A DNA stretch of 40,497 nucleotides from a virus. Under the pieces are notes generated by a model. It made no database searches. It was not told where the DNA came from and worked only from the letters and a program-made list of their open reading frames with translations. The stretch is taken from positions 1-40,497 of the IMG/VR virus record IMGVR_UViG_3300030329_005663. One strand, written 5' to 3'. This document shows, piece after piece, positions 5,819 through 18,582 of the stretch; positions within the stretch are counted from its first letter, which is position 1; the number at the start of each line of letters is the position of its first letter. Both the position numbers and the translations under genes were made by a program.

Positions 5819-8130
5819 TGGCTTATAGTAAGGTTGGTACTCCAAGATTTTATATAAACTTAGTAGAGTGGATGGGTGTAAATAAAAGATCAGAAGATTC
5901 TAAATATAAATTAAGATTTCATGCAGAGAATATAGCATACCAAGGATCAGAGGAGCAATCTAACTGGACTGATAAATTTCAAGATATATTTAGAACATAT
6001 CCCAAGGGTGTTCACAGTGTAAATAATTCTATCGGTGTAGATTTTGTACAACAGGAAGAATTTGAGCAAACAAATTATAATTTATTAGATCATGGTGATG
6101 GTGGTAATGGCTTTATAGCATTTCTTGGTCATAGATTTACTGCCGGTAATGATTCTATAGTAACTGTTGAAGCTGCTCGTGATATAAGGGGAGGAGTTTA
6201 TGATTGGGGTGATGCTGGTGAGCAATATTATGATGAAGGAGTATTAACTGTCACTTTAAATGGTCCATATCCATGGTTAGGTGTCCCCTTAGAGCCGGCA
6301 GATGGTGATCGTGAACTTATGTCTCCTGATGGTCAGAGAGGATATTTTTCAGGCTTACACGGATTTAATGATAATAAATTTCACCTTGAAGATAAGAATG
6401 AAAATAGAATTTATTGGGACAGTCAGCAAGCCAGATGGATAAATGATATTGGAGAGCTTACTCCGGGAGAATCATATAGATTTATAAGTCATATTTATTT
6501 TCAAGATGATTTCACTTTTCCCACTTATGGAACTTTAAGAAATCTCCCTTGGACTACAACTTTTGAAAGTATTAATATTTATCCTAATAACTATGGTGGT
6601 CACACTTTTTCTGGATATACATATATAACCCATCCATATCCATTTGAAGTAACTTTTACACAGATTTTTGATATGCTTGTAAATACAGGGCAAATAACAT
6701 ATGATATGGATTATGAAGATCTTCCAATAGGGGCAGCAGCAGTAATGACTAGAGCAAATCTGATAGTTAGGCGTGACCATTATGAATCGGGCTGGGGGAT
6801 AATAGGGAGTTATATCACACTTAGACCGGGTGAAGGCTTTGTAGCTATGACTAGCGTTGGTAAGCAGATAACATGGTTTCCAATAGATGGAAGAGGTGGT
6901 GGAAGTAATAGACCGGGTGTGAATTGGGATGATGTTGATTTAACACCTCTTGTTAATTGTGAACTATCTGGAAGCAATAGCTTTACAGCAAGAAAAAGTG
7001 GATTCAGCATATCGTCATTTAACGGACTAGATATAGGTCGTATTAATATTAAAGTAGCAGGTTTAGATCCGGATGATGTATATGCAGATTCATCATGTTC
7101 GTCAATAGTTGTAGGCTCATTTTATGATATGCCCTACGGTCCAGAAACCTCATTAAGCATGTCTAATGAATTAGACGGTATATCAGTAAAAAGAGGTATG
7201 GGTGGCAATAATTTTACAAATTATAATTATATAAAACCAAGTGATTGGAATGATAAACCTGCTTGGCACTTGTATGAAATAAGCGATATGGTACGAACAT
7301 CAGATGAATTACACAGGGTATTTGACCCTCAGGTTTGGAGTTATGGAGAAAGTGAGATTGGTCATAATTATGGTGAAGGTAACACTCCCTATACGTTCCA
7401 AGGTAATAGAGTTTTCTTTAACACTCTATATAATCCTGTATTTGAGCCATATGATGATGTTATCACTTTACAGTTAAATGATATTCTAATACCTGGAGTT
7501 GTGAATTTAATACATTTTAAAGTCACTGCTAATCAGCATGATGTAGATGATAGCTGGGTTGATAATACAACTATAGTTTTGGATGGATATTATTACGATG
7601 CTAGTTCATTCTATACTTATGATGAGACAGGGATTGATGGAGAGATAAATATAAAGAAACCCATTGCTTATGGAACATCTATTACAATGATAACTAATAC
7701 TGGGAATTTACTGAGTGCTTGTATTTTAGAAGATTTTTATACCCATACAACAGAAGAAATTTTAGAAGATACTAAAGCTTCAAGAATAGGTAGAAGGACT
7801 TGGGATTTAGAATTTAATTACTTATCTGATAGTGATATCTTCCCAAATATAAGCTCACTTACCAATTATGAGACTACATCTCCTGATGGAATTGTTTGGG
7901 ATTCAGAGATGGCAATAGAGGAAAATACTCTTACACAACAAAGTACATTCTTTTCTCATGTTATACATAAAACTAACGGAGGTCAGCTGCCGTTTATATT
8001 TCAACCTGATAATACCAACTTCAATCCTGATAGCTTTGCAATTTGTAAATTCGATATGAAGACTTTTGAATTTGAGCAAATTTCAAATGGAGTATATAAT
8101 ATAAAAATAAAAATCAGAGAAGTCTGGTAG
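5818..8130 (+). CDS. Tail protein, long paralogue with inserted domains
   Basis: The 770-residue product has the same frame of motifs as its upstream neighbour: TPRFYIN...EW at the start, then GRRTWDLEF, GGQLPFIFQPD, NPDSFAICK and a final EVW. Two long insertions account for the extra length, one of about 200 residues after the N-terminal box and one of about 100 before the WDLEF segment. I prefer ATG at 5818: it has GGAGG 7 bases upstream and overlaps the preceding TAA. A TTG two codons upstream is also possible. The gene ends back-to-back with the convergent minus-strand nuclease. It is probably a tail or receptor-binding component. Confidence 0.75.
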   Translation: MAYSKVGTPRFYINLVEWMGVNKRSEDSKYKLRFHAENIAYQGSEEQSNWTDKFQDIFRTYPKGVHSVNNSIGVDFVQQEEFEQTNYNLLDHGDGGNGFIAFLGHRFTAGNDSIVTVEAARDIRGGVYDWGDAGEQYYDEGVLTVTLNGPYPWLGVPLEPADGDRELMSPDGQRGYFSGLHGFNDNKFHLEDKNENRIYWDSQQARWINDIGELTPGESYRFISHIYFQDDFTFPTYGTLRNLPWTTTFESINIYPNNYGGHTFSGYTYITHPYPFEVTFTQIFDMLVNTGQITYDMDYEDLPIGAAAVMTRANLIVRRDHYESGWGIIGSYITLRPGEGFVAMTSVGKQITWFPIDGRGGGSNRPGVNWDDVDLTPLVNCELSGSNSFTARKSGFSISSFNGLDIGRINIKVAGLDPDDVYADSSCSSIVVGSFYDMPYGPETSLSMSNELDGISVKRGMGGNNFTNYNYIKPSDWNDKPAWHLYEISDMVRTSDELHRVFDPQVWSYGESEIGHNYGEGNTPYTFQGNRVFFNTLYNPVFEPYDDVITLQLNDILIPGVVNLIHFKVTANQHDVDDSWVDNTTIVLDGYYYDASSFYTYDETGIDGEINIKKPIAYGTSITMITNTGNLLSACILEDFYTHTTEEILEDTKASRIGRRTWDLEFNYLSDSDIFPNISSLTNYETTSPDGIVWDSEMAIEENTLTQQSTFFSHVIHKTNGGQLPFIFQPDNTNFNPDSFAICKFDMKTFEFEQISNGVYNIKIKIREVW

Positions 8131-8589
8131 TTACCAAGTTGTAAAATTTGACAACCAAGATGTTGGGATTTCATAATATAAATTATTAGGATTTTCAGGA
8201 TATGCCCTGACATCAGGCTTTCTATCTTCTATAATCTTAATCATTTCATCAAACATTAGTTCGCAATAAGCTTTTTCCTTTACATCATATAAGAAGAAAA
8301 CCACCTTTAAATGATTATTCCATTTAGCATAGCTATTCAAATCCCTTAATTTTATTTTAATTGTTCCAACGAATCCTTTTGCTTCAAAAAATAAAGGGTT
8401 ATTATCTTCTGTAAATATAATATAATCAGGTGCAGACCTTACAAGTGCAGGTATTTTATATATTGGAAGATCTGAATCAAGACAATCAAGACCATATCTG
8501 ATATATCTTGTCATTCTTCTTTCTAAATATTGTTCGGCTTCTTTTTCTGCAACTCTATTTTTATTTCTTGTTTTAAAATCTGCCATCAT
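8131..8589 (-). CDS. PD-(D/E)XK family nuclease
   Basis: The product is 152 residues. The motif PD at residues 54-55 is followed by E69-A-K71 (PDYIIF...LFFEAKG), the metal-binding core of PD-(D/E)XK nucleases. The N-terminal KEAEQYLERRM helix is usual in VRR-NUC or Holliday-junction-like members. It is the last gene of the leftward replication operon, starts in a 4-base overlap with the RuvC-like gene, and has AGGAG upstream. A structure-specific nuclease acting in replication or recombination is likely. The substrate cannot be told from sequence. Confidence 0.8.
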   Translation of the reverse strand: MMADFKTRNKNRVAEKEAEQYLERRMTRYIRYGLDCLDSDLPIYKIPALVRSAPDYIIFTEDNNPLFFEAKGFVGTIKIKLRDLNSYAKWNNHLKVVFFLYDVKEKAYCELMFDEMIKIIEDRKPDVRAYPENPNNLYYEIPTSWLSNFTTW

Positions 8590-9107
8590 TCTATTACTCC
8601 TATTCCTTTCTCAGCTTCAGGCATATTATCATTATAATAACACTCCTTTGCGTGATTTGCTATTAATATTGCGTCACTTACATTAAATGTAATCTTTGTA
8701 TTTGGATATAATGATTCTGCGTATTCTTTAAGCCATTTCTTTCTATCCCTTCCACGAAGATTATTTGGAACTTCTAACACGTTCTGCCATTTTCTAGGTG
8801 CAACATTATAAACGTCTATTTCATTCGCTGCTGCTATACCTTTCCACAGACCATAATTATAACCAAATCTAAAGGCACTAACTCTGCCATCTCCGGGAAA
8901 TGACCAAACATGTTCTACAAATAAAATAACATCATCAGCACTTGTTTCACCAATACCTGCCTCAAATACCCCTGCCATATCATATGCAGTTTTTGGGCAT
9001 CTAACAGCTTGAATAACATCACTATCAAGTTCCGGCTTTATAAATACGATACCTCCATTCATTCCGGGATCTATACCTATAAATAGTTTCTTTTCAATAT
9101 TATACAT
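8586..9107 (-). CDS. RuvC-like Holliday junction resolvase
   Basis: The 173-residue product has the RNase H-fold acidic residues in RuvC order: D13 in GIDPGMNGG, E65 in LFVEHVWSFPGDG, and D145 in NVSDAILIA. The length equals that of bacterial RuvC. It would cleave four-way junctions or branched replication products before packaging. It overlaps the helicase gene by 8 bases and the nuclease gene by 4, so the three are probably translated together. Confidence 0.88.
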   Translation of the reverse strand: MYNIEKKLFIGIDPGMNGGIVFIKPELDSDVIQAVRCPKTAYDMAGVFEAGIGETSADDVILFVEHVWSFPGDGRVSAFRFGYNYGLWKGIAAANEIDVYNVAPRKWQNVLEVPNNLRGRDRKKWLKEYAESLYPNTKITFNVSDAILIANHAKECYYNDNMPEAEKGIGVIE

Positions 9108-10435: not shown

Positions 10436-11116
10436 TTAGAATATTTTAAGTTGATTTAATTCTCTATCTATCCTTTTATAAGCACTTTCTACATACTTTT
10501 TATTGATTTCAGAGCCAATCCATCTTCTTTTTTCTTTTATTGCTGATACTGCAGTTGTTCCACTCCCCATAAATGGATCATAAACTATATCATTCATTGA
10601 GGAACTTTTACTAATAAGCTGTCTTATTAAATAGGTAGGCTTTTGAGTGGGGTGCAATTCATTCATAGTTCTTGGAGAATATATTATATTGCTATCCCTT
10701 TTACCATTCAGATTTCTTTTACCTTTTACACAAAATATAATCATTTCATATTTAGGGGCATAATCTCCTTTTAAATCCCCCATACCTGTATTATTCTTTT
10801 CCCATATAAGTATATTTTTTACATTAAAATATTTTTGTAGCTCAATTTTGAATACTTCAATATTATGGTAAGAACAGAAACAATATAAATGAGTATCTTG
10901 TTTTAAAATTCTATATGACTTTTCAACCCAAGCAGGAAGCCAATCAAGATTATCATCACCATATATCTCATCATGTTTTTCATATCTATGATTACTTCTA
11001 AACTGCATACCATATGGTGGATCAGCAATTATAAGATCAATAAAGCCATCATTCATCTTATCCATAGTATCTAGGCAGTCTTCGGTATATATCTCACAAG
11101 CCATACTTTCTTCCAT
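10436..11116 (-). CDS. DNA methyltransferase (N4-cytosine/N6-adenine type)
   Basis: The product is 226 residues. Catalytic motif IV DPPY is at 32-35 and the AdoMet-binding motif I DPFMGSGTT is at 180-188, preceded by HPTQKP. This order (catalytic before binding) is that of beta-group methyltransferases. No restriction enzyme is adjacent, so it is an orphan enzyme. It may protect phage DNA or mark it for regulation or packaging. AAAGGAG is 7 bases before the ATG. The target sequence is unknown. Confidence 0.92.
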   Translation of the reverse strand: MEESMACEIYTEDCLDTMDKMNDGFIDLIIADPPYGMQFRSNHRYEKHDEIYGDDNLDWLPAWVEKSYRILKQDTHLYCFCSYHNIEVFKIELQKYFNVKNILIWEKNNTGMGDLKGDYAPKYEMIIFCVKGKRNLNGKRDSNIIYSPRTMNELHPTQKPTYLIRQLISKSSSMNDIVYDPFMGSGTTAVSAIKEKRRWIGSEINKKYVESAYKRIDRELNQLKIF

Positions 11117-11887: not shown

Positions 11888-12505
11888 TTAGAACGGCAAG
11901 TCTTCAAGTTCGACATCTACTTTTTCTCCTTCTTCCCATTTGTCAATAGTTTTAACTTCAAAAGACTTTCTTTCTACTCCATCAGTGCCTTTCCAAGGTT
12001 TGCCTAAACCTATTGTTGCAAGGACAGGTACTCCAAGGAAATCATTAGTGTCAAGATGAGGTAAACTTTTTACCATTTTCTTTTCACCATCTATATCTAC
12101 CTCTACATCAGGACAATTAACTCCAAGAGCCATCACGGTATCCATATACTTTCTATTTCCACCGGGATTAGCCTCAAAATCATCGCCAACATCAGGTGCT
12201 ATAAAAAAGAATATACCTGATGATCTGACTTCACGACCAATATAGTTATTCCCATCAACTTGTTTCATTTTCCCATCAATATCTTCTATTTGATAGGTTC
12301 TACCTGCAACAGATTTATCAATCTTAATTCTAAAATTGTAAATATCTGCTTTGTACTTATTTCTAACAGATCGTGTTGCCTTATCACATTTTATAATATG
12401 TGCAGGATAAACACCTGCTGCCAGTCTTGTTTTTGATTGCTCTTTAGAGGGATCAAAATAATTTACTACCCCTGCAGAACTTGCTACTTCATTTATACTA
12501 CTCAT
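11888..12505 (-). CDS. Single-stranded DNA-binding protein (SSB-like)
   Basis: The 205-residue product ends in an acidic tail with the tip VELEDLPF, matching the (D)DLPF/DDIPF hook by which bacterial SSBs recruit partner proteins. The body has a beta-rich stretch consistent with an OB fold (RNKYKADIYNFRIKI...). GGAG lies 7 bases before the ATG. It sits directly downstream of the Rad52-like annealing gene, the usual recombination pairing. The OB fold itself is inferred rather than read from a signature. Confidence 0.75.
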   Translation of the reverse strand: MSSINEVASSAGVVNYFDPSKEQSKTRLAAGVYPAHIIKCDKATRSVRNKYKADIYNFRIKIDKSVAGRTYQIEDIDGKMKQVDGNNYIGREVRSSGIFFFIAPDVGDDFEANPGGNRKYMDTVMALGVNCPDVEVDIDGEKKMVKSLPHLDTNDFLGVPVLATIGLGKPWKGTDGVERKSFEVKTIDKWEEGEKVDVELEDLPF

Positions 12506-12515
12506 TGTCTTTCTC

Positions 12516-13142
12516 CTAGATTAAGGTTTCTATTTTTCTTATTGTTGCCTCAAAATTTGTAATATTGATTGTCATCTCATCAATACCATTACGAATTTTA
12601 TTAACAACCTTCTCATTGTCTTTTATTTCTTCGAGTTTAGCCTCAATTTCATCTCTCTGATCATCACTAAGACTAATATCCTCTATGCGTTTACGATACA
12701 CATCATCTGCTATATTGCAAAGCCTATTAACTGCAACCTTAAAACAATCCGTATTAGCCGATTTAAGGTCATTCCCTATATCAACATAGCCTTTGTCATT
12801 TGAAGCGATTCTATGGGCATCTACGGAATCAAAACTACGTTCTACGCCATTATCATTAATAGTTAATCTTCCGTGAACTAAAATAGCCTTATCCCCTATG
12901 AACTCATATTTAATTATCTCCCACTTCCATATAGGATAATACTTGTTCAACAGATGACGCATATAACCCTCGTCAACATAGTCAAAGCCTTGTTGTTGTT
13001 TTACATAGACTTTAGGAGTATTAATCATAGATATATCGTCGTGCTTTGATATAAGGTTTGATTCTAACTCCATTATTGCATCGTCAACATTTGCTATATT
13101 CTCTGCAAAAGTTTCGGACTTTACCATTTTGCCATTTTTCAT
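12516..13142 (-). CDS. Rad52-like single-strand annealing protein
   Basis: The 208-residue product has the pattern of the Rad52/DdrA/Sak annealing group. A YVDEGYMRHLLNKYYP segment is followed by a beta-hairpin ending in HGRLTI, then a GNDLKSANTDCFKVAVNRLC helix of the KSA-x-TDAxKRA type. The C-terminal third is a predicted coiled coil (DEIEAKLEEIKDNEKVV). It would anneal complementary single strands, working with the neighbouring SSB and the nuclease halves upstream. Assignment is by pattern only. Confidence 0.65.
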   Translation of the reverse strand: MKNGKMVKSETFAENIANVDDAIMELESNLISKHDDISMINTPKVYVKQQQGFDYVDEGYMRHLLNKYYPIWKWEIIKYEFIGDKAILVHGRLTINDNGVERSFDSVDAHRIASNDKGYVDIGNDLKSANTDCFKVAVNRLCNIADDVYRKRIEDISLSDDQRDEIEAKLEEIKDNEKVVNKIRNGIDEMTINITNFEATIRKIETLI

Positions 13143-13315
13143 GCTGTTTTTCTCCTTTTCTCATTTATCCCCCAAGTGCTTGAAATGTCACTCTTGAGAG
13201 TTTTTACATCATAGTTACCATTCGCTAAATCTACGATGTCTTTTATAACCTCTTTATGTAGCGAAATTTGACTACCATACCAATGCGATACCATTTTTCC
13301 AGTTATTTTCATCAT
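13139..13315 (-). CDS. Small hypothetical protein (58 residues)
   Basis: The frame opens with two consecutive ATGs at 13315, overlapping the previous stop as TAATG, with GAGG just upstream. It ends in an ATGA overlap with the annealing-protein gene. The product starts MMKITGKMVSHWYGSQISLH and ends in a basic KRRKTA tail. I do not recognise it. Tight coupling on both sides argues that it is real. Confidence 0.6.
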   Translation of the reverse strand: MMKITGKMVSHWYGSQISLHKEVIKDIVDLANGNYDVKTLKSDISSTWGINEKRRKTA

Positions 13316-13830
13316 TACTCCTCGGTTCGCATTTCTTTAATTAATTGTTTACCTGATCTTGGACTTGATAGAAATAAACCAAGCCTTTTACCTCTATGAT
13401 ATGTTGAATCTTCAAAATATCTTTCAAAGTGTTTTTCAGCTTTATCAATAACTATATCCCTATTGTCACTATCCTCTAAATAAAAATTTCCTGAATATTC
13501 TTCCCAACCATCTTCTCCGTGTAGTGATGGATTGTTTCCTTCTGGAAGAACTCTTATTTCAGTGAAACTTCTATTCATATAAGCATTTAAAGTATCTGCT
13601 ACTCTTTTTATATGTTTCTTTAAAGACCTTACATCTTCCTCTAATGTTGATAACTTGCAACCAATAACACCTTCTCCATCACAAGTCTTACAGGTCCTAG
13701 AAACCCATTTACCCTCTTTATCTTTATTCTTGGTTTTAATCTTCCCTGCACCAAAACATTTTTCACAATTATTTTTAAGTTTATTCTCAATTTTTTTAAC
13801 CCTTGTTACTAAATCAAACTCTAAAGCCAT
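13315..13830 (-). CDS. DnaJ-type zinc-finger protein
   Basis: The product is 171 residues. Residues about 22-58 hold two CxxCxGxG-type repeats (CEKCFGAGK and CKTCDGEGV, then GC), the cysteine-rich finger of DnaJ, without a J domain. A coiled coil follows (TLEEDVRSLKKHIKRV), then an acidic stretch and a basic C-terminus. In phages such fingers occur in nucleic-acid-binding or chaperone-like accessory proteins. It lies within the recombination cluster; its role is unknown. Confidence 0.65.
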   Translation of the reverse strand: MALEFDLVTRVKKIENKLKNNCEKCFGAGKIKTKNKDKEGKWVSRTCKTCDGEGVIGCKLSTLEEDVRSLKKHIKRVADTLNAYMNRSFTEIRVLPEGNNPSLHGEDGWEEYSGNFYLEDSDNRDIVIDKAEKHFERYFEDSTYHRGKRLGLFLSSPRSGKQLIKEMRTEE

Positions 13831-14139: not shown

Positions 14140-14601
14140 TTATCTCCTTTCATTACAAGTTTTTTCATATTGACAATATTTACATTCCCACGGCATAACA
14201 GGTGATTCACCCTCTTGGAATTGGGGTAAGCCATCTCTATGAAGGTCTTTAACTCTAGTCCAAAAATTATAACTACCATCAATGAAATCTATATCAACTT
14301 CAATCTCTTTCATATCAGATGTATCTTTATTGTAAAACAAGAGGAACAAGCCATCGCACCTTCCAAACTCCTCTCTCACTCCATAGCCATAAGTACCTAA
14401 TTGTAACTCTTGATGGATTGACGGCTTGTCCTCTTTCTTCCTCCCGAACTTGAACCTCCAAGACCACGAGCCTATTGTCTTTATATCATAGACATAGACC
14501 TCCCCCGATTCAAGCTCCACTACTATATCTGCTAAACCTTTAACATTAAATTCAGGTATTTCAATTTTATGTTCAACGAGCATATTCTTAATATTGTCCA
14601 C
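14140..14601 (-). CDS. Cas4/RecB-like nuclease, C-terminal half
   Basis: Started at GTG 14601 (GGAGG 6 bases upstream), the product is 153 residues. It contains the catalytic core of RecB/Cas4-like PD-(D/E)XK exonucleases: D25 in KGLADIVV, D39-I-K41 in YVYDIKT, and a Q67-x3-Y71 motif. Three cysteines follow (140, 143, 149; ECKYCQYEKTC), the C-terminal ligands of the family's 4Fe-4S cluster. The N-terminal helices, the motif I His and the fourth Cys are missing; they are encoded separately at 15029-15301. It would be the exonuclease partner of the Rad52-like protein. Confidence 0.8.
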   Translation of the reverse strand: MDNIKNMLVEHKIEIPEFNVKGLADIVVELESGEVYVYDIKTIGSWSWRFKFGRKKEDKPSIHQELQLGTYGYGVREEFGRCDGLFLLFYNKDTSDMKEIEVDIDFIDGSYNFWTRVKDLHRDGLPQFQEGESPVMPWECKYCQYEKTCNERR

Positions 14602-14740
14602 TTTCAACCTCCATTTCTTGCTCTTGCATAAATATAACTAAACATTCAGAACATAGTCTTTGACCATAACAAACTTCGTGTAAACCTGATAAATCATAAT
14701 TTCCACAATCAGAACATATAACCTCTTTTACTTTTCCCAT
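14588..14740 (-). CDS. Small zinc-ribbon protein (50 residues)
   Basis: The product has CSDC near residue 9 and CSEC near residue 31, a four-Cys zinc-ribbon layout, and an acidic glutamine-rich C-terminus. It starts in a TAATG overlap with the upstream gene and overlaps the nuclease C-terminal half by 14 bases. It lies between the two halves of the split nuclease. No family was recognised. Confidence 0.6.
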   Translation of the reverse strand: MGKVKEVICSDCGNYDLSGLHEVCYGQRLCSECLVIFMQEQEMEVESGQY

Positions 14741-14931
14741 TATTCATTCTCCTTTACATTTTCTAATTCATCATTTATTCTCATTATTTCCAAATCAAAA
14801 TCTTCAACATCAGACTCAATTTCGCCTCTTTCAAATTTTCTATTATAAATTTTTATAGCTTGCTCTTCATTTGTAGCATCAACTATTACAGACTTAAATC
14901 TCTTTATTAAATAACCTTTAATTAAAAACAA
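14740..14931 (-). CDS. Small hypothetical protein (63 residues)
   Basis: It starts at TTG 14931 with GGAG 6 bases upstream. The N-terminus is basic (IKGYLIKRFKSVIVDA) and the C-terminal half acidic (ESDVEDFDLEI...ENVKENE). The alpha/beta pattern with TNEEQAIKIY resembles small phage proteins with a DUF-type fold, but I do not recognise it. It is also part of the segment inserted between the nuclease halves. Confidence 0.6.
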   Translation of the reverse strand: MFLIKGYLIKRFKSVIVDATNEEQAIKIYNRKFERGEIESDVEDFDLEIMRINDELENVKENE

Positions 14932-14943
14932 ACAACTCTCCTT

Positions 14944-15028
14944 ATTTAGTATTATTAGTATTATATATTATATATTATATATATAACTATAAGAAAAAAG
15001 AAAAAAAGAATAAAAAAGAAAAAAGAAA
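14944..15028 (-). promoter_or_regulatory. Pyrimidine tract followed by TA-rich tract (copy 1)
   Basis: On the minus strand about 40 bases of T with scattered C are followed by about 40 bases of TA-rich sequence. An element with the same order and the same core (TTTTTATTC then T-run) stands before the terminase gene on the plus strand at 20693-20786. Both end at a gene start. It may be a promoter, an unwinding element or a recombination scar. Low complexity makes chance similarity possible. Confidence 0.35.
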
Positions 15029-15301
15029 TTAATTCTCAAGTTCTTCTATCAGTGCTTTTTGTATTTCGTTGTGAACAACCGTTCCAAGTCTCATTATTCT
15101 TTGAGATTTCTGATAAGCCTTGATTTCACTATCAGTTTGGGGTGTATCAGGCTCAATTTTTTCTATTGATTCAAAATATATTTTTCTTGCACACATACCA
15201 GAACTACTTGGTCTGTATCTATTATCAGTTTTAGGGTTTTCTTCCCTGTATTTTTTTCTTTTATTCTCAATAGCTTTATTATAGATTTCAGATAATTTCA
15301 A
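15029..15301 (-). CDS. Cas4/RecB-like nuclease, N-terminal half
   Basis: The 90-residue product starts at TTG with AAGGGG upstream. It reads as the first third of a Cas4/RecB-like exonuclease: a RYRPSSSGMCARKIYF segment with Cys37, the usual single N-terminal Fe-S ligand, and RLGTVVHNEIQ with motif I His77. It stops after EELEN, before the catalytic Asp residues. Those lie in the 153-residue frame at 14140-14601, which begins where this one leaves off. About 430 bases with two small genes separate them. Whether the halves associate or the gene is dead cannot be told from sequence. Confidence 0.78.
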   Translation of the reverse strand: MKLSEIYNKAIENKRKKYREENPKTDNRYRPSSSGMCARKIYFESIEKIEPDTPQTDSEIKAYQKSQRIMRLGTVVHNEIQKALIEELEN

Positions 15302-15605: not shown

Positions 15606-15740
15606 TTAATCATCAAAGAAGAAGTGTTTGATAACCTCTACAATGAAGTTGATAATGAAAAGCACAACAAACAGGCATAGTCCAAATATCAGTGTTGATA
15701 CTATACTTGCTGTTAATACATTAGCATAAATCAAAGTCAT
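15606..15740 (-). CDS. Small single-span membrane protein
   Basis: Started at ATG 15740 (GGAGG 5 bases upstream), the product is 44 residues. It is dominated by one hydrophobic segment (IVSTLIFGLCLFVVLFIINFIV) followed by an acidic end (FFFDD). It overlaps the end of the amidotransferase gene by 20 bases in another frame, so the two are translationally linked. It may anchor or escort the amidotransferase/amidoligase proteins at the membrane, or it may be a holin-like toxin. Confidence 0.65.
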   Translation of the reverse strand: MTLIYANVLTASIVSTLIFGLCLFVVLFIINFIVEVIKHFFFDD

Positions 15741-16647
15741 CTGAACCTCCTTCAAGCAGTTTCCTGTCTTTGTTAAGAAGTTGTGAATCACTTCTTACGC
15801 ACTCGGGACATAGTTTTGCTGTAACTACATCATAGTCCTCGTGATTGTAAAAGTCAGTAACATCACACTCTTTAAGATCTCCAGACTCCATACCACACCA
15901 ATCACAATTTGGAAATGTCAGATCATCAGCATTCTCAAAGTCATCTTCCCAGCCATATTTGATTCTATCTTTAGCATTTTTTAATGCTGTATTAACAATC
16001 AAGCCAGTATTGTTATTCTTCTTTGATACGCTCTTTTGCTGATTCCACCCATATACTGAGGCTCCGTAACTCCCATAGTTACCATAATTGTAGTATTTAG
16101 TCTCACAATACCCATTATTTGAGAACCATATTGTTTCCTCGTCATTCCAATGTCCCATATCCTCATTGATAATTGAGAAGTTCTTTTTACTGTCTAAAAA
16201 GACAAGTTTAGAATTTCCAATAAATCCAGAAATCAATTTAATATGAGCAGTATTTTCGAGGAAATCTAAAGGTAACTCCTTTAATACCTCTTTATTGAAC
16301 ATTTGAGTATCTGAAAGTTTATCATCATCAGTTACATCTGATATTATTCCATTATGCCCAAATACCAGATCGTTCCTAACTTTGAATGGGTGAACATTCT
16401 CTGTCCCTATATTGACTCCGTGTGTTGCAAGTCTGAAATGTAATAGGAATGGTGATTGATGCCCATAACGAGAAATATCTCTATCGTAACCTTTTAGAAA
16501 TTTAGAGAACTTTCTAAATTTACGAATAATTAATTTCTCATCTTTAACAAACGAGTATCCAATTCCATCAGGATTTGAATCATCTGAGTTTTGCAACTCT
16601 TTTTCAGTTAATCGAGTATTCTCTTTTTGTAGTACAAGTAAACACAT
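15721..16647 (-). CDS. Class II glutamine amidotransferase with C-terminal zinc ribbon
   Basis: The 308-residue product begins with Met-Cys, so the nucleophile Cys2 of Ntn-type amidotransferases would be exposed after Met removal. The family's motifs follow: NPDGIGYSF (25-33), LLHFRLATHG (68-77), VHPF (85-88) and GHNGII (97-102). It would release ammonia from glutamine for a partner synthetase. Unusually the C-terminus adds a zinc ribbon (C248, C251, C280, C283) after a Gly/Tyr/Asn-rich linker (about 186-200). The partner is most likely the amidoligase encoded just upstream. GGAG stands 8 bases before the ATG. Confidence 0.87.
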   Translation of the reverse strand: MCLLVLQKENTRLTEKELQNSDDSNPDGIGYSFVKDEKLIIRKFRKFSKFLKGYDRDISRYGHQSPFLLHFRLATHGVNIGTENVHPFKVRNDLVFGHNGIISDVTDDDKLSDTQMFNKEVLKELPLDFLENTAHIKLISGFIGNSKLVFLDSKKNFSIINEDMGHWNDEETIWFSNNGYCETKYYNYGNYGSYGASVYGWNQQKSVSKKNNNTGLIVNTALKNAKDRIKYGWEDDFENADDLTFPNCDWCGMESGDLKECDVTDFYNHEDYDVVTAKLCPECVRSDSQLLNKDRKLLEGGSDDFDLC

Positions 16648-16668: not shown

Positions 16669-18582
16669 TTATCTATTTATGTTTAATCCTTCAGGTACTT
16701 CTTTAGCGAATATTAAAGATTTCTGATAATCTTCATTTCTTTCTGATACATATGTATTCAGATTCGCATACTTCTTTTTATTCTCTTCAACATACTCCAT
16801 AAAAGATCTAATGCTCAATTTCTTTAGAGGTATGTTTTTCGACCAGTAATACAAGGCATCTAAAAAGTCAATATTCTTTCTGAATGATACCTCTTTCAGA
16901 TTACCTTTAAAGACTCTTATCTCTATTGTATTAGTATGTTGGAGATTAACAGGAACATATTTTTCTCCGTGATTTAAAGTGCAATATGTAAACCTGTTCA
17001 GATTCTCTTTAAGATCCAGTTTCTTGCCTCTTATATTTTGAGCCATATAACGCTGGGCAAGTCTTGTATCTCCTGCTTTGAACTTTGCATAATTGTTATA
17101 CTCGTCCATCGCTTTCCTCTGCGATATGAAATGAGTAAACTTCTTATACTCGTGTATGAACGTCATAAACTTTAAGACGTGCAGATCACTAAAAGCAGAT
17201 CTATTCATATGGATATGAATTCCACAGGTTTTAGTAAAGTAACTCCTAATATCTCCCCTGTGTTTAAATATAGCCTCATCTAAATTCATATCAGCCCAAG
17301 CCTCAAATGTCATTGGATGTGAACATATCTCAAAGCCATCAGATAGTGAGCCATCTTCTTTACACCAGAAGAATTTATGCAAATCACCACCATACTCTGA
17401 TATTTCCTCTGCTATTTCATATTTATCTATACCACCATCAGCAGACTCAACCTCAAGTTCTACTCCATAATATGGCATAAATCTCTTTTGATTTGCTACC
17501 TCGTGTATTCCCTTTACCCTGTTCCACTCATAGTATGTAAGTGAAGGATTATCAGAATATCCACGAATTGACTGATTGTAGGATTCCTCTAAACAATTAT
17601 GACAATACCAATTATCATCTCGATTAGAATATGAGCCATTTTCTTCGTCAAAGTCACTATCACATCTCTCACAATACCTTGAGTAGTCTTCAAAGCACTG
17701 AATACACCAATAGTCTCCATTTACTTCTCTCATATAGAGATCCTCTATCTGGGAAGTTTGATGCCTACTGCAATGATCACATCTCTCCATTTTATCAAGA
17801 TTGTAATATGATATTTTTGCTGAATTACGATGATTGAATGAGTGGTTTATTCTTATTCCAGAACCAAAGAACTTCCAGCAAAATCCAGTATATGGTTTAA
17901 AGTAAGGCTCTTCAACATCTTCAAGATCTATGTAATCATTATGAGCATTTCCAAGAACACAGGATTCCACTGTATTAGTGATGAATGTTTTAAAGTTTCT
18001 TATGTGATTCAGACTTAAAATTCCATTCCAGCCATCATCACTTTGAAAGCAATATTTCATATACTCAGTTAGATCACTTTCCAGCATTTTCTTATTCACA
18101 ACAAGATTGAATAACATTCTGAAGAATTCACCTCGTCCAGTGCCAGTTGCTTCTCTTCGCAACATATTGTCTTTCCAATGAGATATCTCGTGAAGTCCAA
18201 TCGAGGGATCAATATTGGTAATACTATCGCCAATATGTGAGGCAAAGGTTTTACTGACAAGCCCATCTTCTCTAATACAATGATCATTGTATGTTTTTAT
18301 CATTCTTTTGAGAAGTTTATTTTGATCAGAAATTGAAGGATCATCAGTAACATAACGTCCCCCAGTCCTATGAACAAAAATTATTGTCTCCGTAATTACT
18401 ACCTCAGGCTTCAACTCTCTTGACTGCAAAAACCCTACGCCTGGAGTTGGATCGTAATTAATGAGTTTTTTAACACTCTTTTTGTCAATAAACTCAACGT
18501 GTATTTGAGGCATTAGATTGCCAGACTCCTTTTGTATCTTTTTGTAAAAAACCAGACCATTCAGTCTTACTTTGTATTCCAT
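16669..18582 (-). CDS. Large protein with two zinc ribbons and a C-terminal amidoligase-like domain
   Basis: The product is 637 residues. Residues about 370-600 show the glutamine-synthetase-fold amidoligase (COOH-NH2 ligase) signature: GVELEVE, CKEDGSL, GFEICSHPMTF, GIHIHMN and NTIEIRVFKG. The acidic, His-x-His and Arg positions are those expected to bind metal and ATP. Before it lie two Cys clusters (C268, C271, C293, C296 and C304, C307, C327, C330) that read as zinc ribbons. The first 260 residues match nothing I know. With the adjacent amidotransferase it would amidate a carboxylate using glutamine-derived ammonia. The substrate is unknown. Confidence 0.78.
   Translation of the reverse strand: MEYKVRLNGLVFYKKIQKESGNLMPQIHVEFIDKKSVKKLINYDPTPGVGFLQSRELKPEVVITETIIFVHRTGGRYVTDDPSISDQNKLLKRMIKTYNDHCIREDGLVSKTFASHIGDSITNIDPSIGLHEISHWKDNMLRREATGTGRGEFFRMLFNLVVNKKMLESDLTEYMKYCFQSDDGWNGILSLNHIRNFKTFITNTVESCVLGNAHNDYIDLEDVEEPYFKPYTGFCWKFFGSGIRINHSFNHRNSAKISYYNLDKMERCDHCSRHQTSQIEDLYMREVNGDYWCIQCFEDYSRYCERCDSDFDEENGSYSNRDDNWYCHNCLEESYNQSIRGYSDNPSLTYYEWNRVKGIHEVANQKRFMPYYGVELEVESADGGIDKYEIAEEISEYGGDLHKFFWCKEDGSLSDGFEICSHPMTFEAWADMNLDEAIFKHRGDIRSYFTKTCGIHIHMNRSAFSDLHVLKFMTFIHEYKKFTHFISQRKAMDEYNNYAKFKAGDTRLAQRYMAQNIRGKKLDLKENLNRFTYCTLNHGEKYVPVNLQHTNTIEIRVFKGNLKEVSFRKNIDFLDALYYWSKNIPLKKLSIRSFMEYVEENKKKYANLNTYVSERNEDYQKSLIFAKEVPEGLNINR

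Follow-up and report, generated by a model that had tools for sequence, protein, structure and literature searches.

The window analyzed here covers positions 1 to 40,497 of IMG/VR record IMGVR_UViG_3300030329_005663, a stretch of 40,497 nucleotides from an uncultivated tailed phage group, and the locus in question is a Cas4-like/RecB-type nuclease that an earlier note had read as being divided between two genes. Along the minus strand, the gene half encoding the N-terminal part (N-half) comes first, followed by a pair of small genes at 14931-14740 and 14740-14588 and then by the half encoding the C-terminal part (C-half). The earlier note had placed about 430 bases between the halves; the frames are 427 bases apart, and this interval contains an AT/pyrimidine tract as well as the two small open reading frames (14740-14931 and 14588-14740). 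The features are as follows.

15029..15301, minus strand: N-half of the Cas4-like/RecB nuclease, 90 amino acids, TTG start, with the predicted cluster Cys37 and the motif I His77
14945..15028, no strand assigned: AT-rich (TA)n tract together with a purine/pyrimidine tract of two blocks, immediately following the stop of the N-half
14740..14931, minus strand: spacer gene 1, a 63-amino-acid protein of unassigned function, with homologues at the same place in the related contigs L003, L004, and L006
14588..14740, minus strand: spacer gene 2, a 50-amino-acid cysteine-rich protein, with homologues in the L006 and L002 spacers (E of about 1e-26 to 1e-33)
14140..14601, minus strand: C-half, with the PD-(D/E)XK core and the predicted cluster cysteines, 153 amino acids, GTG start

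The C-half carries D25, D39-x-K41, Q67-xxx-Y71, Cys140, Cys143, and Cys149, and the residues thus lie on the two frames as originally assigned. The well-spaced GGAGG described ahead of the C-half was found 6 nucleotides before the GTG; an alternative in-frame start, TTG, lies at 14607, but sister proteins begin near the position of the GTG. The stop of spacer gene 2 overlaps the C-half start by 14 nucleotides, and in six of the seven phages holding both halves the C-half start and the stop of the small gene upstream of it overlap by 1 to 17 nucleotides, suggesting that translation of the C-half may be coupled to that of the small gene.

Both halves proved to belong to one family. The C-half matched Pfam PF12705 (E=3.6e-8, 34.1 bits, for a cut-off of 22 bits), and the two halves matched different portions of phrog_1706, the N-half at profile positions 30-101 (E=1.4e-10) and the C-half at 112-243 (E=1.1e-11), while intact homologues cover positions 29-242. 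In the nearest intact protein, L203 (253 amino acids), residues 2-78 match the N-half and residues 97-252 match the C-half. The proposal that the joined halves read as one nuclease, the second starting where the first ends, is thus borne out by adjacent parts of both phrog_1706 and L203. Intact homologues in turn matched both sites of the window in order (tblastn E values down to 3e-14 and 6e-51), aligning to both halves end to end, and no full-length homologue was found that aligned to one half only. Because the halves match phrog_1706 and the intact homologues match both places in order, the complementarity of the N-half and C-half, as judged from these alignments, is not due to chance. Searching the window with the intact homologues gave no match outside the two halves and no second intact copy.

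Searches of IMG/VR returned more than 100 distinct homologues. About 100 relatives, including L203, L005, and the L118 group, carry a single uninterrupted gene; these are the sister phages that the earlier note had proposed to look for. Eight further contigs show the split, six of which hold both halves as separate genes (L003, 3300020472_000005; L004, 3300044267_004838; L006, 3300030329_002785; L098, 3300046532_002190; L102, 3300030090_005537; L170, 3300030106_004155). The other two are one-sided, L091 with an N-half that stops before the contig end and L002 with a C-half behind a spacer gene. The contigs come from different metagenomes, and the spacers differ between split phages in length (about 275 bp to 1.1 kb) and in the genes that they hold. 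We therefore rejected an assembly artefact as the source of the 427-base segment, since seven contigs, including the window, hold both halves with different spacers. No relatives in cultured phages were found for the intact proteins L203 and L005, the sole match of protein P0002 among cultured phages was to Thermus phage TMA (E=0.04), and the genome collection yielded one distant relative, on a contig of a Roseobacter metagenome-assembled genome. One further contig (L169:1-646) has a C-half in frame with an unrelated domain at the contig start and looks like a chimeric assembly.

To examine conservation, we aligned 55 intact proteins with 16 halves (8 N-halves and 8 C-halves). Ten residues, namely, the four cysteines, the motif I His, the D, the D-x-K pair, the Q, and the Y, were invariant across the intact proteins and all halves. 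The cysteines are divided one to three between the N-half and the C-half, with the His on the N-half and the D, DxK, and QxxxY on the C-half. In the clade of the window, both halves had nonsynonymous divergence (dN) of about 0.12 to 0.46 against synonymous divergence (dS) above 1 or saturated, the dS values being rough this near to saturation, and both halves are thus under purifying selection. The distances of the N-halves and C-halves were correlated (r=0.92, permutation P = 0.002). Given the invariant residues, the low dN relative to dS, and the correlated distances, the sequences indicate that the halves are two working genes inherited together.

These data bear on the possibility that the locus is a pseudogene, in which the nuclease was broken by an insertion and the frames are decaying remnants. 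Unrelated small genes do separate the halves in every split phage, and the L003 spacer holds a gene for a PDDEXK_14 "phage putative endonuclease" (L003:2339-2842, E=4.3e-9), a possible homing-type invader. However, the catalytic and cluster residues have remained invariant in every half, dN is low against saturated dS, the halves have their own start signals and diverge congruently, and the split persists across several phage lineages. The selection analysis thus refutes decay in the main, and we regard it as very improbable. In the spacer of the window itself, Pfam and PHROG profile searches detected no homing endonuclease.

In an AlphaFold model of intact L203, built from an alignment including intact and half sequences, the predicted local distance difference test score (pLDDT) was 94.8. 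Residues 79-96, at the junction, take in the last part of helix 58-92 and the turn leading to strand 97-108, and the break thus sits in the loop joining the His helix to the first core strand. A fold search of the PDB gave Cas4 SSO0001 (4ic1) as the best match (E=1.4e-8, template modeling scores of 0.55/0.66), with further matches to Cas4 in the Cas4-Cas1-Cas2 complex, ACE1, MGME1, EXO5, RecE, Dna2, and lambda exonuclease. Since all four cysteines align with those of 4ic1 in a profile search, the single cysteine of the N-half is expected to join the three of the C-half in one Fe-S cluster, and the halves probably form an obligate heterodimer with one inter-chain active site. An alternative is that the C-half, which holds the metal-binding D, the D-x-K, and the QxxxY, is a minimal nuclease by itself and that the N-half is a separate regulator or DNA-binding accessory. 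We give this very little credence, as what the N-half has retained is precisely the cluster cysteine and the motif I histidine, whose use within the same fold is known, and the distances of the two halves covary.

Phages carry introns and inteins in DNA metabolism genes, so the halves could in principle be rejoined into one polypeptide by an intron, a split intein, trans-splicing, or programmed bypass. An intron at the junction was rejected, since neither gathering nor relaxed thresholds gave any Rfam match, to group I or group II introns or to another RNA family. No intein-like sequence was seen at the ends of the halves, although no dedicated intein model was run, and each half ends or starts only a few residues away from the homologous domain. 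In addition, the spacers vary in length and gene content, and the C-half has its own start, and the upstream gene that this start overlaps is not the same from phage to phage. Rejoining is thus highly unlikely.

The genes around the nuclease point to a role in recombination. Four of them are relevant here, an annealing gene nearby and three others in the same gene cluster.

12516..13142, minus strand: Sak/Rad52-type single-strand annealing protein (SSAP), syntenic with the PF06378 SSAP_Sak gene of L005; its model resembles Mgm101, 80alpha Sak, and RAD52
11888..12505, minus strand: probable single-stranded DNA-binding protein (SSB), with an acidic C-terminal tail ending in DLPF; synteny kept in L002, L003, L004, L005, and L006
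9100..10425, minus strand: DnaB-like replicative helicase (phrog_19, E=2.3e-66)
8586..9107, minus strand: Holliday junction resolvase (phrog_1770, E=8.5e-23)

In L005, where the nuclease gene is intact, the gene directly downstream encodes a Sak SSAP (PF06378 SSAP_Sak, E=3.7e-43), and the SSAP of the window is 24% identical to this counterpart. The arrangement of a nuclease gene beside an SSAP gene is thus seen in L005, and its counterpart in the window is recognized by synteny and fold. Because a Sak/Rad52-type annealing gene lies nearby, the nuclease is likely the end-resecting exonuclease of a phage recombination module.

Taken together, we consider it very probable that fission of one phage Cas4-like exonuclease gene gave rise to the two functional genes of the locus, whose chains assemble into one nuclease. 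A single PD-(D/E)XK, RecB-type gene would have been split into two separately translated genes, the 90-residue chain providing the helical part, which includes the motif I histidine and one of the cluster cysteines, and the 153-residue chain providing the beta-sheet core with the metal-binding and catalytic residues and three cysteines. The chains would be made separately, with translation of the C-half coupled to the stop of the small gene before it, and would fold together so that both the active site and the Fe-S cluster form between the chains. The joint enzyme would resect DNA ends for the neighboring Sak/Rad52-type protein and the SSB, and the break falls within a linker that is variable, AT rich, and repeat containing and that would tolerate interruption. 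Several points weigh against this interpretation: the model of the SSAP of the window is mediocre (pLDDT of 69.8), the probable SSB is assigned by synteny, its sequence giving no family match in Pfam or PHROG profile searches, the C-half alone could keep residual activity, the N-half might have a second role, and an undescribed mechanism might conceivably rejoin the halves at the RNA or protein level.

We next addressed how the gene broke. Among the main group's intact genes, linkers vary, the DNA that encodes them consisting of AT-rich repeats such as TATAATAGAGATAATAATAGAGAT, and in many of these genes (L005, L014, L017, L028, and others) the AT-rich repeats are followed by paired purine blocks, AAAGAAAAAGAA. 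Linker codons are far more AT rich than those of the rest of the gene, AAT making up 94% versus 62% of Asn codons and AAA 91% versus 68% of Lys codons, as counted over related sequences, for which the P values come out too small. In the clade of the window, TTTCTTTTTCTTT-type blocks directly follow the N-half stop and are themselves followed by (TA)n. This tract, which is unique in the window in having 35 or more purines or pyrimidines within 36 nucleotides, is kept in L003, L004, and L006 and more loosely in L091, and looks like an inverted, intergenic counterpart of the intact linker DNA. In L102 and L170, the end of the N-half, KRKEPKENI-stop, instead falls within a forward tract, which in L203 is read through as KRKRKEAKEKENIYI. 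Parsimony on the tree of split and intact genes requires three changes, and a single split clade, with one ancestral fission, was not rejected by the approximately unbiased test (P = 0.154). Since the same site carries two different kinds of lesion and the tree needs three changes, we lean toward two or three fissions rather than a single ancestral one, though there may have been one fission followed by re-fusions, and the AT-rich repeat linker is the likely cause of repeated fission.

The linker element might be a functional cis-acting DNA site or slippage-prone simple sequence. GC skew gave no support for an origin at the element, since the skew tracks the direction of the genes and has its turning points near 8,000 and 19,500 rather than there. 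The tract of the window forms no RNA hairpin (z=0.29), unlike L006 and L170, which fold strongly at this position. In L006, a pyrimidine tract, an AT core, and a purine tract after the N-half (L006:3256-3373) make up a long imperfect inverted repeat, and strong hairpins lie between the halves of L170 (3722-3746) and L102 (4318-4346). The transcript may be attenuated between the two chains in these two phages; a terminator scan of the hairpins made a call only on the opposite strand of L170. A bolder and rather doubtful idea is that the linker contains a cis-acting DNA element, made up of AT-rich repeats and paired AAAGAAAAAGAA-type blocks and serving perhaps as a site of unwinding or as an origin. 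Inversion or slippage of this element would have broken the gene at one and the same point at least twice, with an obligate two-chain nuclease sharing one Fe-S cluster as the outcome each time, and assembly of this nuclease might switch phage recombination in response to redox state or stoichiometry. An origin inside a coding sequence has a precedent in the lambda ori, which lies in the O gene (PMC4488673).

Cas4-like nucleases of pfam12705 have been described in phages (PMC5704561), and those of pfam12705 and PHROG 1706 and 1990 share with the present pair the fold, the ten motif residues, the four-cysteine module, and the phage context. However, they are single polypeptides, whereas the equivalents of L203 residues 2-78 and 97-252 are separate genes here. 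Phage genes in pieces are also known, namely, Aeh1 NrdA, split by mobE, the gp43A/43B polymerase of Aeromonas phages 25 and 44RR, and T4 topoisomerase (PMC2988022). These are likewise uninterrupted in relatives and separated by intervening genes or untranslated sequence, and their parts are known to be separately translated and to reassemble, whereas assembly is predicted from sequence here. They concern different enzymes, none of which is known to have an Fe-S cluster split between its parts; in contrast to them, most spacers here lack a recognized homing endonuclease and the break lies in a repeat-rich linker that was probably hit more than once. The lambda Exo/Red beta and RecE/RecT modules likewise place a nuclease, of the same superfamily according to the fold search, beside a single-strand annealing gene, but here the nuclease is Cas4-like with a predicted Fe-S cluster, its partner is of the Sak/Rad52 type, and it is encoded by two genes. 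Clusters held by three cysteines of one chain and one of another, as predicted here, occur in the mammalian mitoribosome between mS25 and bS16m and between bS18m and bS6m (PMC11452305); these are ribosomal proteins and not fission products of one enzyme.

In open-access papers, we found neither a split Cas4/RecB nuclease nor a phage enzyme with a predicted one-plus-three inter-chain cluster, and the word "split" is absent from the Cas4 phylogenomics paper (PMC5704561). While genes in pieces are thus familiar in phages, a split Cas4/RecB nuclease with a predicted cluster of this kind appears to be new. It would add an enzyme class to the phage genes in pieces and, as a natural split nuclease in which neither chain has a complete active site or cluster, would offer a direct test of whether the cluster and the catalytic center can assemble between chains. 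The intact and split sister lineages would allow fission, and perhaps re-fusion, to be studied. The locus also points to an unexplained DNA element that lies within a coding linker in a large group of uncultivated phages.

Other genes of the region were noted in passing. Upstream of the split gene lie a glutamine-amidotransferase-like protein (15721-16647, phrog_25883) and a 637-amino-acid protein with an amidoligase family match (16669-18582, phrog_7469, E=2.4e-8), and counterparts of both stand next to the split gene in sister phages. A 171-amino-acid protein (13315-13830) has a DnaJ/anti-TRAP-like zinc-binding CxxC pattern. Finally, a DNA methyltransferase of 226 amino acids (10436-11116) matches only positions 122-350 of the 743-position phrog_67 and is possibly a short version of this family.
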